Translations under genes and position numbers: made by a program | From: Burkholderiales bacterium | GTDB taxonomy: Bacteria > Pseudomonadota > Gammaproteobacteria > Burkholderiales > Burkholderiaceae_C | NCBI GenBank assembly: GCA_016191995.1 | Contig: JACPVA010000192.1 | Span: forward strand, 1 to 61,421 | Length of the DNA: 61,421 nucleotides | Reading direction: 5' to 3' | Part shown: piece after piece, positions 27,350 through 36,015 of the stretch | Layout: every line of letters starts with the position of its first letter | Numbering within the stretch: the first letter of the stretch is position 1 | Notes under the pieces: generated by a model | The model's database searches: none | Seen by the model: the letters and a program-made list of their open reading frames with translations, nothing else | What the model was told of the DNA's origin: nothing

Positions 27350-30307
<2,958 letters not shown>

Positions 30308-32003: not shown

Positions 32004-32450
32004 TCACCGACCGTTTTCCGGCGCCTCGAAGGTCCTGACCTGCAGCCCGGCGTCCCTTGCGGCGCGGGCCAGCTGGCGGTCATCGGTGGCCAGAACGTCG
32101 GCGCCGCCGTCGATGGCGCTCGCGAGGTGCAGGGCGTCCAAGGTCGCCAGCGGCGGCCCTTCGGCGATCAGCCGGCGGGCCGAGATCAGCACCGAGGTGT
32201 CGAGCGTGTGCACGGCGAAGAAGCCGCTGCGCATGTCGTCGTCGATTCGCAGGCGCACCTGGTTGCGATCCAGGCCACCCTGGAGCTCGCGCGCGCGCCG
32301 CGCGACCACCGACTCCAGTTCCACGACGACGAGATCGCTGACGAGGAAGCGATGCGCGGGTCCGTCGAGCCAATCGTCGATGTCGTCCGAAGCCGGACCG
32401 CGAAGGTAGCGCTTCGCGAGCACGCTGGTATCGACGTAGATGCGGCTCAT
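32004..32450 (-). CDS. PIN-domain toxin (VapC-like)
   Basis: 148 residues of PIN fold. Acidic active-site residues appear in IYVDTSVLAKRY (first Asp), VVELESV (Glu), LDALHLASAI (Asp) and the DVLATDDRQLARA end motif. VapC toxins cleave RNA, often tRNA. The start overlaps the antitoxin stop by 4 bases (ATGA), the usual TA arrangement. One of two VapC-type genes in the window; the two proteins are not close relatives. Confidence 0.88.
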   Translation of the reverse strand: MSRIYVDTSVLAKRYLRGPASDDIDDWLDGPAHRFLVSDLVVVELESVVARRARELQGGLDRNQVRLRIDDDMRSGFFAVHTLDTSVLISARRLIAEGPPLATLDALHLASAIDGGADVLATDDRQLARAARDAGLQVRTFEAPENGR

Positions 32451-32680
32451 CGCGCGTCGCGCTCTTCGCGGATCCAGCGCTCGATCGTGCCCGGCGCCAC
32501 CATAGGCTGGCGGTCGCGGAAGGCCTTCAGCGAAGGCAGGCGGCGCCGCCGCGGCTCGACCGGAGTGAGCCGCGCGACCGGTTCGCCGTTGGACACGAGC
32601 ACCAGTTCGCCCTCCCTCGCCAGCGCTTCCTTCAGCCTCGGGATCGTCTCGCGCAGTTCGCGCACGTTCACGGTCTTCAT
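32447..32680 (-). CDS. Phd/YefM-type antitoxin
   Basis: 77 residues beginning VNVRELRETIPRLKEAL and LVLVSNGEPVARLTP, the prevent-host-death DNA-binding fold, with a basic C-terminus that should wrap the toxin. AGGAG sits before the ATG at 32680, and a consensus TATAAT with flanking inverted arms is just upstream, consistent with autorepression. An upstream in-frame extension exists but would cross the promoter. Confidence 0.87.
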   Translation of the reverse strand: MKTVNVRELRETIPRLKEALAREGELVLVSNGEPVARLTPVEPRRRRLPSLKAFRDRQPMVAPGTIERWIREERDAR

Positions 32681-32692
32681 CGCGGCACTCCT

Positions 32693-33316: not shown

Positions 33317-35773
33317 TCAGTAGTCCCCGGTCCCCGCCGGCGCCAGGCTCTCGAAGCGCGTCAGCGGTTTCAGGAAGGTCAGCTTGATCGTGCCGACCGG
33401 GCCGTTGCGCTGCTTGGCGACGATGATCTCGGCGACCCCCGGCTCCTTCGAGCTGTCCTTGTTGTAGTAGTCGTCGCGGTAGATGAACATGATGACGTCG
33501 GCATCCTGCTCGATCGCGCCCGACTCGCGCAGGTCGCTCATCATCGGTCGCTTGTCGTTGCGCGACTCGACGCTGCGGTTGAGCTGCGACAGCGCCAGCA
33601 CCGGGCACTGCAGCTCCTTGGACAGGCCCTTGAGGCCGCGCGAGATCTCGCCGAGCTCGGTCGCACGGTTCTCGTCGCTGCTCGCGCTGCCGCTCATCAG
33701 CTGCAGGTAGTCGACGACGATCAGCCCGAGCGTGCCGCCGAACTGGCGCGCCATGCGGCGCGCGCGCGCGCGCAGCTCGCCCACCGTCAGCCCCGGGGTC
33801 TCGTCGATATAGACCTGCGCCTGCTTGAGCCGGTCGACCGCCTCCGCCAGCCGCCCCCACTCCTCGTCGCCGAGCTTGCCGGTGCGCAGGTGCTGCTGGT
33901 CGATGCGGCCGAGCGACCCCACGAGCCGCAGTGCGAGCTGCGACGCCCCCATCTCCATCGAGAACACGAGCACCGGCAGACCCTCGTGGACGGCGACGTT
34001 CTCGGCGATGTTGAGCGCGAAGGCGGTGTTGTGCGTCACGATGTCGCCGTCGGTCACGTACAGCCGGCTCGGGTGGCTGACCGCGATGCACTGGCAAGCC
34101 GCCTCGCGCGACGGCTCGACGGCGGCGATCGTCAGGCGCTTCTGGCGCCGCCACGCGGCAGGCGCGCGCACCTGCTTGTCCGACAGCAGGAACAGGGTGC
34201 GCGGCTGCGGATGCGAGATGTGGCACACGTGGGCCGTGGCACCCGGCACGCGCATGCCGGCCACGTCGCGCCAGTACGGCTGCTTGGTCGTCACCGAGCA
34301 CCAGCCGCCCAGGGACCGCACCAGCTCGCACAAGTCCTCGGCCAGCCGCGGGCTCGCGGTCGACAGACGCACGCTGCCCCAGCGCTCGACCCAGCCATCG
34401 GTATCCAGCAGACCGCGCAACAGGTCCAGCCGCTGCTCGCGCCCGGTCTCCAGGTACAGGCGCGGGATGAACTTGCGGTCGCTCGCCAGCCCCGACAGGC
34501 CGAGCGCCTCCAGCGCCACCCGCAAGGGGTTGGGCTGCGAGCCTGCCAGGCCGCGCTCGTGGCCGCGGTCGCATCGCACGACGCGGTAGTCGCAGCCGCC
34601 GGCGTGCGTCACCTCCAGTCCGGCCCCGGCGCGCTCGGCGACGCGCGTGACGATTTCGGCCGATCCACTGGCAAAACGCACCGAGCCGCTACCGGTCAGG
34701 TTGCCGTCACCGAGCAGGCAGCCGAGCAACCAGGGGTCCACCGGCAGCGGGTCCAGATGGCCGAAGTCGCCTTCGTGGCGGTCGATCCAGAGCCGGCCGC
34801 GGTAGCGCTGCCGGCCCAGCAGCGCGCGGATCTGCGCCGTACTCAGCACGCGTGCGGCGCGCCAGCCACGGTAGTGAACGCGCCAGAGATGCTCGTCGCA
34901 GCATTCGGCGGACCGGCCGTCGGAGAAGCGGATGCGCCAGACCGGCCTCGTGCCTTGCGGAAAGATGCCGGTGACGATCGACGGCCGCCCGTCGACCGAC
35001 GCCAGCGCGTCGCCGACCTCGAGCTCGCCCATCGGCTTCCAGCCCGAGCGCGTGCGCACCTGCGCGTCCAGCGGCTGCGCCTTGCCCATCGACGGTCGCG
35101 CCGCCAGCACCAGCAGCTCGCCCTTCTGCAGCCCGGCGGTCTGGCGGTCGAGGTCGTAGAAGCCGGTGCGCACGCCGGTGACCTCTTCGGCGCCATGCTC
35201 GTACAGCTCGGTCACGCGGTCGATCAGATCGACCACGAGCTTGTCGATCGGCTGGAAGCCCTGGCGATGGCGCGCACCCTCCTCGCCGATCTTCAGCACG
35301 CGCGACTCGGCCTCGTCGAGGATCTGCGGCACCGCGCGGCCCTGCGGGTTGAACGCGCTGGTGGCGATCTCGTCGCTGGCCGCGATCAGCTTGCGCAGGA
35401 TCGCGCGCTCGCGGACGATCTCGGCGTAGCGGCGCAGGTTGGCCGCGCTCGGCACGCTCTGCGCGAGCGCGTTCAGGTAGGCCAGGCCGCCGGCGTCGTC
35501 GCCGCGTCCATGCTGCTGCAACTGCTCGAAGACCGTGATCACGTCGGCCGGCTTGCCGGCGCCGACCAGCGCCCCGATCGCGGCGTAGATCAGGCGGTGT
35601 TCGAGGCGGTAGAAGTCGTCCTCGGCGAGCAGGTCGCCGGCGCGGTCCCAGGCCAGGTTGTCCAGCAGCAGCCCGCCGAGCACGCTCTGCTCGGCCTCGA
35701 TCGAATGCGGCGGCACGCGCAGCCGCGCGACATCGTCGTCGCGCCCTGCCGCGGCCTGGGAGGCGCTCGTCAT
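33317..35773 (-). CDS. dnaB: Replicative DNA helicase DnaB containing an intein
   Basis: 818 residues as translated: 467 of host DnaB (E. coli DnaB is 471) plus a 351-residue intein. Host parts are the N-terminal domain (PPHSIEAEQSVLGGLLLDN), the Walker A RPSMGK/TAFALN split by the intein, Walker B LIVVDYLQLM, and the C-terminal QRNGPVGTIKL. After splicing it forms the hexameric replicative helicase. The ATG at 35773 gives the normal start; an ATG at 35782 is the alternative and neither has a clear ribosome site. It follows the rplI operon by about 240 bp, a common linkage. The host protein is unusable unless the intein splices, as the P-loop is interrupted. Confidence 0.95.
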   Translation of the reverse strand: MTSASQAAAGRDDDVARLRVPPHSIEAEQSVLGGLLLDNLAWDRAGDLLAEDDFYRLEHRLIYAAIGALVGAGKPADVITVFEQLQQHGRGDDAGGLAYLNALAQSVPSAANLRRYAEIVRERAILRKLIAASDEIATSAFNPQGRAVPQILDEAESRVLKIGEEGARHRQGFQPIDKLVVDLIDRVTELYEHGAEEVTGVRTGFYDLDRQTAGLQKGELLVLAARPSMGKAQPLDAQVRTRSGWKPMGELEVGDALASVDGRPSIVTGIFPQGTRPVWRIRFSDGRSAECCDEHLWRVHYRGWRAARVLSTAQIRALLGRQRYRGRLWIDRHEGDFGHLDPLPVDPWLLGCLLGDGNLTGSGSVRFASGSAEIVTRVAERAGAGLEVTHAGGCDYRVVRCDRGHERGLAGSQPNPLRVALEALGLSGLASDRKFIPRLYLETGREQRLDLLRGLLDTDGWVERWGSVRLSTASPRLAEDLCELVRSLGGWCSVTTKQPYWRDVAGMRVPGATAHVCHISHPQPRTLFLLSDKQVRAPAAWRRQKRLTIAAVEPSREAACQCIAVSHPSRLYVTDGDIVTHNTAFALNIAENVAVHEGLPVLVFSMEMGASQLALRLVGSLGRIDQQHLRTGKLGDEEWGRLAEAVDRLKQAQVYIDETPGLTVGELRARARRMARQFGGTLGLIVVDYLQLMSGSASSDENRATELGEISRGLKGLSKELQCPVLALSQLNRSVESRNDKRPMMSDLRESGAIEQDADVIMFIYRDDYYNKDSSKEPGVAEIIVAKQRNGPVGTIKLTFLKPLTRFESLAPAGTGDY
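34028..35080 (-). mobile_element. In-frame class 3 intein with LAGLIDADG endonuclease inside DnaB
   Basis: 351 residues inserted between the Walker A Lys and Thr. The first residue is Ala, not Cys/Ser. Block B DEHLW supplies His64 and Trp66, block F QCIAVSHPSRLYV supplies Cys331, the end is THN (His350, Asn351) and the +1 residue is Thr: the W-C-T set that defines class 3 inteins. Two LAGLIDADG motifs are intact, LLGCLLGDG (Asp125) and LLRGLLDTDG (Asp226/Asp228), so homing may still be active. Boundaries follow from restoring RPSMGKTAFALN. Confidence 0.93.
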
Positions 35774-36015
35774 CGGGGGCATGCAGGTCTGGCCGGCTCG
35801 GCGGTGGACAATCCTGTGGACAGGCGGTGCGGCCGCGGTGGACGACGCGGCGCCGAAATGGACGAGGCCGGCGGGTGCCGGCCTCTGTGCCTCGGCGCCG
35901 AGCTTACGCCCGTGCGGCCAGACGATCAATGCCGCCGATCGGCTGCGCGGCGCTGGCGCCGCCAGTGCCGCCAATGCCGTTCAGCGACGACGCGACGGCC
36001 TGCCGGCAGCGGGGT
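35774..36015. other. rplI-dnaB intergenic region with hairpin and repeated GTGGACA
   Basis: No gene here. Two GTGGACA copies 12 bp apart (35804-35810, 35816-35822) lie just before dnaB, and a 9-bp hairpin at 35864-35885 is described separately. No convincing -10/-35 was found. Confidence 0.5.
35864..35885 (-). terminator. Hairpin downstream of rplI, possible terminator
   Basis: Perfect 9-bp stem GAGGCCGGC / GCCGGCCTC with a 4-nt loop, about 130 nt after the rplI stop on the minus strand. Only a weak ATTTC follows, so intrinsic termination would be partial. Confidence 0.4.

Follow-up and report, generated by a model that had tools for sequence, protein, structure and literature searches.

A probable class 3 intein with a LAGLIDADG homing endonuclease in the DnaB P-loop of a Burkholderiales bacterium

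In a Burkholderiales bacterium of the family Burkholderiaceae_C (assembly GCA_016191995.1), the gene of the replicative helicase DnaB carries 351 additional codons in the middle of its ATP-binding loop, which raises the question of what kind of element occupies this site and whether it splices and moves. The gene lies in a 61,421-nucleotide stretch of contig JACPVA010000192.1, the whole of which is referred to here as the window. The insert (34028-35080, minus strand) is in frame, contains no stop codon and splits RPSMGK from TAFALN. A group I intron or a free-standing endonuclease gene was ruled out, as the reading frame is continuous through both exteins. With a probability of roughly 0.92, the P-loop of DnaB (site b, GK^T) holds here a full-length class 3 intein that carries its own LAGLIDADG homing endonuclease and that splices and homes as proposed below. 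The grounds for this reading are the anatomy of the insert, its class signature and predicted fold, its sporadic distribution, the conflict between intein and host-gene trees and purifying selection. Translation of the frame gave the coordinates, the 351 codons, Ala1, Trp66, Cys331, Thr-His-Asn at 349-351 and the GDG and DTDG motifs just as an original prediction, made from the letters of this DNA, had described them. The features of the gene and of the insert are as follows.

33317-35782, minus strand: dnaB gene with intein; start ATG at 35782 or 35773, stop at 33317-33319
35081-35782, minus strand: N-extein of DnaB, ending in AARPSMGK with the Walker A Lys at -1 (from the reading frame and Pfam)
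34028-35080, minus strand: predicted class 3 intein of 351 amino acids (from the reading frame, PDB match, relatives and structure model)
33320-34027, minus strand: C-extein of DnaB; its first residue (34025-34027) is the Walker A Thr, the predicted +1 nucleophile
35078-35080, minus strand: Ala1, no position-1 nucleophile (Ala in 104 of 105 DnaB inteins)
34898-34900, minus strand: Cys61, block B:7, in the slot of the TxxH Thr (Asp62 in Mycobacterium smegmatis DnaBi1)
34889-34891, minus strand: His64, block B:10
34883-34885, minus strand: Trp66, block B:12, the W of the WCT (Trp, Cys, Thr) set
34181-34780, minus strand: LAGLIDADG endonuclease domain, about residues 101-300, with approximate bounds (PF14528; I-Tsp061I aligns to residues 108-312)
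34706-34708, minus strand: Asp125, acid of the first LAGLIDADG motif (GDG, residues 124-126)
34397-34399, minus strand: Asp228, acid of the second LAGLIDADG motif (DTDG, residues 226-229)
34088-34090, minus strand: Cys331, block F:4, the C of WCT and predicted initiating nucleophile
34028-34036, minus strand: Thr349-His350-Asn351, block G; Thr349 is the T of WCT and Asn351 is predicted to cyclise

Class 3 inteins are defined by the lack of a nucleophile at position 1 together with Trp at B:12, Cys at F:4 and Thr at G:5 (PMC3196547). All four marks are present in the insert as Ala1, Trp66, Cys331 and Thr349, along with His64 and the terminal His350-Asn351. A class 1 or class 2 intein was ruled out by Ala1 and the complete WCT set. 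The original prediction had identified the W and the C correctly but had blurred the T with the Thr at +1; the T is in fact the Thr preceding the penultimate His (PMC3196547; PMC6195587). The best sequence match in the PDB was 6bs8, the class 3 intein DnaBi1 of M. smegmatis (E 3.7e-8). Its alignment, with positions counted by hand, pairs Trp66 with Trp67, Cys61 with Asp62, Val47 with Cys48 and Cys331 with the block F Cys, thus keeping Trp and Cys at their block B and F positions, and the predicted structure has a Hint fold resembling that of solved class 3 inteins. The class proposed at the outset is thereby upheld, and the insert is a well-formed class 3 intein with an endonuclease and is probably active.

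These residues were compared over 220 related loci, of which 185 had an intein match. Eight of the 185 open reading frames were dropped (six truncated at the 5' side, two without HN), and the 177 kept gave 156 unique inteins, 106 in DnaB-like proteins and 50 in other hosts, which by their annotation include helicases and terminases among others. Residue counts exclude three inteins of apparently other types or with misplaced ends and thus cover 105 DnaB and 48 other inteins, window included. His64, Trp66, Cys331 and Thr349 were invariant in all 105 and all 48. Intein ends were placed at HN followed by T, S or C, and starts were moved to GK within six residues where present; because HN was required by the script, the invariance of His350-Asn351 is no evidence. 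An intein directly after GK, as in the window (GK^T, site b), was found in 105 of the 106 DnaB-like inteins (window included) and in 45 of the 50 others, the sole DnaB-like exception (L139) being inserted at another site. The P-loop site was thus correctly recognized in the original prediction; it is not new, since a P-loop insertion that parts the Walker A Lys from the Thr has been described as 'classic' (PMC5050341). Likewise, a Walker A Thr or Ser that doubles as the +1 nucleophile has been described for M. smegmatis (PMC6195587). The DnaB of a Comamonadaceae metagenome-assembled genome (MAG; L011 and L168, the same contig by sequence start) holds two inteins: that in the P-loop is of this class 3 type, and the other, at the DLRE site, starts with Cys. 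The terminase of Mycobacterium phage Settecandela (L230) holds a WCT-type intein with Cys, not Thr or Ser, at +1.

The distribution of the intein bears on how it came to be in this gene. A survey of presence or absence in sister genomes, which had been suggested as a check on the original prediction, found the intein in only 1 of 81 genomes of the genus; in four others the matches were no more than weak and partial (E 2e-8 to 5.5e-4). All 29 congeneric loci fetched showed the empty joint, and the rest of the genus was judged by search alone. Counting its own genome, 12 of 150 genomes of the family matched at E 1e-3 (11 strongly) and 31 of 399 of the order did so (13 below 1e-100), while at a stricter E of 1e-10 the class gave 4 of 369 and the phylum 7 of 398. 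The closest intein found was that of L141, in the gammaproteobacterial DnaB of a MAG labelled Lysobacteraceae, at 81.5% identity for the intein and 55.3% for the extein. Azohydromonas L170 presents the converse, its extein being 79.7% and its intein 62.8% identical to those of the window. In the intein tree L141 and the window form a clade (bootstrap 100), whereas the extein tree places L141 with Dyella L184 (100). Exchange of the two trees was rejected by approximately unbiased tests (p 1.4e-57 and 2.8e-81); five short exteins of 107 had been left out, and 89 were thinned to 69 for the trees. Sporadic presence and conflict with the host-gene tree, the pair of features by which a mobile intein is recognized, are thus both found here. 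Synonymous divergence (dS) between the window and L141 inteins is about 0.7, so L141 is not the immediate donor. A direct phage donor was not found, the best GenBank phage match among those listed being 38% and the best IMG/VR contig 54% identical, as against 81% in a bacterium. Most likely, the intein reached the host species from outside its genus.

This history lends no support to the long residence suggested in the original prediction, given the single genus genome, the 29 empty loci and a nearest intein in a gammaproteobacterial DnaB. The host-like composition on which that suggestion was built is real, the guanine-plus-cytosine (GC) content of the insert being 72.7%, that of the extein 70.8% and the mean of window tiles 71.2% (standard deviation 2.4). 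Dating by composition was rejected as uninformative, since intein GC tracks extein GC in 89 hosts (r 0.95) and the L141 intein, beside an extein so dissimilar, has a nearly equal 71.9%; composition therefore says nothing on age. The traD annotation of KR827394.1 covers a related intein-like stretch (28489-29595; 34.5% identity), and plasmids of Enterobacter, Citrobacter and Klebsiella have one at equal identity. A contig titled Chitinophaga pinensis MAG (L154) carries a Burkholderiales-type dnaB with an intein identical to that of L006, from the window's family, and the record is probably mislabelled or mixed.

Is the endonuclease still at work? The insert has two LAGLIDADG motifs with their acids, Asp125 and Asp228, the LAGLIDADG_3 model of Pfam scores 26.8 bits against a cut-off of 22.5, and the structure model of the intein matches PI-SceI, the class 1 VMA intein of yeast, and I-Tsp061I. 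As was first noted, the endonuclease is apparently intact. Against the L141 intein, the ratio of nonsynonymous to synonymous substitution rates (dN/dS) is about 0.17 for the whole intein, 0.16 for the N-terminal splicing part, 0.18 for the endonuclease and 0.14 for the C-terminal splicing part, by the NG86 method, which is rough at 92% GC at third codon positions. The endonuclease part is thus under purifying selection, as expected if it is still selected, and homing is therefore probably recent or current.

Besides that roughness, several observations weigh against the reading of an active, mobile element. In a survey of 33 disjoint pairs of relatives, whole-intein dN/dS lay between 0.04 and 0.68, and dN/dS reached 0.95 in the endonuclease (L124/L125, acids lost) and 1.12 in the C-terminal part (L112/L170). 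Among 89 bacterial DnaB inteins, that of the window included, 8 lack at least one aspartate of the homing endonuclease; mobility is therefore not shared by the whole family. Within the genus the intein could also, though less probably, have been lost in 80 sister lineages rather than gained once, and the host assembly consists of 199 contigs. Further, PF14890, the intein splicing domain, had no match in the host genome, with matches in 6 of 14 control genomes; Pfam detects only the endonuclease part of the insert, and thus the splicing domain is far from the curated PF14890 model. A dead or dying element, with poor splicing or an inactive endonuclease and kept because precise loss is rare, would fit the eight relatives without a catalytic Asp, among them L179 at a shortened 299 amino acids, and a non-splicing class 3 intein, Arsp-FB24, has been published (PMC3196547). 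In the window, however, all class-defining residues are present, the frame is open and the dN/dS to the nearest intein is low. Moreover, dnaB is normally essential, and a full-length DnaB query gave one match in the host genome, with no second dnaB seen. A dying element is thus very improbable, and the active class 3 intein is preferred. The DnaB inteins of L124, L125, L127 and L179 have a ruined or shortened endonuclease and keep Trp66, Cys331, THN and Cys61, and these may be read as stages in the decay of homing.

The flanks of the insert match the DnaB N-domain (PF00772, E 4.8e-34) and C-domain (PF03796, E 1.8e-102), which with the LAGLIDADG_3 score inside puts the insert well outside what chance would give. 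The neighbours are rplI, rpsR, an SSB_1-family protein at the position of priB, and rpsF, and from these the site looks like the chromosomal dnaB locus. The intein is present once in the host genome, and no further LAGLIDADG_3 matches were found there. Just downstream of dnaB, at 32004-32684 (minus strand), lies a PIN-domain protein (PF01850, E 3.4e-15); a short open reading frame upstream of it is antitoxin-like by reading, has no Pfam match at 1e-5, and may form a toxin-antitoxin pair with it.

As proposed, Cys331, aided by His64 and Thr349, would attack the Lys(-1)-Ala1 bond to give a branched thioester at block F. The N-extein would then pass to the Walker A Thr at +1, and cyclisation of Asn351 would allow the exteins to ligate and restore GKT. 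As DNA, the element would home: its endonuclease would cleave dnaB copies that lack the intein, at the codons of the P-loop, and repair copying would then spread the gene. Until the insert is spliced out, it keeps the Walker A Lys apart from the Thr, so the precursor should not hydrolyse ATP; a RadA precedent is mentioned in the literature (PMC6195587). The original prediction further suggested that splicing conditions could gate replication, for which M. smegmatis DnaBi1 would be the precedent, but its Cys48 partner aligns with a valine in the window intein. Gating of splicing by oxidation was shown for the endonuclease-less M. smegmatis DnaBi1, and the authors contrast such a responsive intein with a fast, unresponsive one that bears an endonuclease (PMC6195587). 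By analogy with that contrast, the window intein looks like the mobile type.

The residue at B:7 is Thr in the TxxH motif of class 1 and Asp in M. smegmatis DnaBi1 (PMC6195587). According to a 2020 paper, no residue is conserved there in class 3 inteins generally, those characterized having Gly or Asp and the paper's own case Ser (PMC7891396). In the present set, 102 of 105 DnaB inteins have Cys61, a raw count that may be inflated because the locus scans used the patterns ECCDEHLW and EAACQCIA. A recount on loci found without those patterns gave 25/25, 48/50 and 9/10, or 82 of 85 DnaB inteins, window included; the three exceptions are two Thr (L186, L195) and one Gly. Phage relatives vary, with Cys in 4 of 16, Asp, Gly and Ser in three each and Ala, Thr and Asn in one each, in a non-random sample chosen by eye for variety from the 60 listed among 473 matching records. 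Outside DnaB, Cys61 occurs in none of 13 viral inteins found with a neutral pattern and in one of three genome inteins, which are few and partly one terminase group. All these counts are raw tallies uncorrected for relatedness, and Cys61 is one of 59 of the 351 columns conserved at 96% or more. Cys61 marks the sampled DnaB group. No published Cys at B:7 and no published Burkholderiales DnaB inteins were found in the literature searched, which was largely open-access.

In the AceL NrdHF intein, one rotamer of the B:7 Ser lies 2.9 Å from the amide nitrogen of the scissile bond, and the block F thiol, as modelled, is 3.0 Å away from the carbonyl carbon of that bond (PMC7891396). Since both groups are thus about 3 Å from the scissile bond, a Cys61-Cys331 disulfide is plausible here by analogy. 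The insert could then be a domesticated class 3 intein in which this pair, or Cys331 alone, is oxidized under stress so that splicing is blocked and DnaB and replication are held back. The M. smegmatis intein offers a precedent through Cys48-Cys118 (PMC6195587), the sulphurs of the strongly conserved Cys61 and of Cys331 should be close, and both Cys are kept in L124, L125 and L127 despite ruined endonuclease motifs. However, there is no equivalent of Cys48 in the window (Val47), the canonical Thr stands in place of Cys61 in two of the three exceptions, as would suit hydrogen bonding without redox, and an intact endonuclease together with presence in 1 of 81 genomes looks parasitic rather than domesticated. 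A plain hydrogen-bonding role for Cys61 is more likely than a disulfide, and domestication as a redox switch is unlikely, if far less remote than a dying element. Slightly more doubtful still is a combined proposal, namely a proteobacterial DnaB-b class 3 lineage with Cys61 in place of the TxxH Thr, two thiols at the N-splice junction and a reversible Cys61-Cys331 disulfide that would gate helicase maturation by redox, the pair differing from the mycobacterial one and having arisen independently in a still mobile element.

The mobile class 3 intein remains the preferred reading, by which class 3 P-loop inteins that bear an endonuclease appear to move between the replicative helicases of beta- and gammaproteobacteria. 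It further raises the question of whether the conserved second active-site Cys makes splicing of an essential helicase redox-sensitive, and such a thiol pair could also make a class 3 intein useful as a switchable tool for splicing.

As an insert the intein is of a known kind, and its sole unusual feature is the second strongly conserved Cys at its predicted active site. M. smegmatis DnaBi1 (6bs8) is likewise a class 3 intein at DnaB site b. However, it is a mini-intein of 139 amino acids without endonuclease, with Asp at B:7, a Cys48 redox partner and Ser at +1, whereas the window intein has a full endonuclease, Cys at B:7, no equivalent of Cys48 and Thr at +1. PI-SceI is more distant, at about 20% identity. 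Phage class 3 inteins of terminases and helicases share the WCT set and commonly the insertion at GK^T or GK^S, and every one of the 36 rows of alignment A1, the viral ones among them, has a LAGLIDADG_3 match; the phage inteins differ in the low identity of their best matches and in how few have Cys at B:7. Published examples are MP-Bethlehem DnaB and MP-Catera Gp206 (PMC3196547), the comparison here being made through other phage inteins. The AceL NrdHF class 3 intein differs in being split, in having Met for Trp at B:12 and Ser at B:7, and in residing in a different host protein (PMC7891396).
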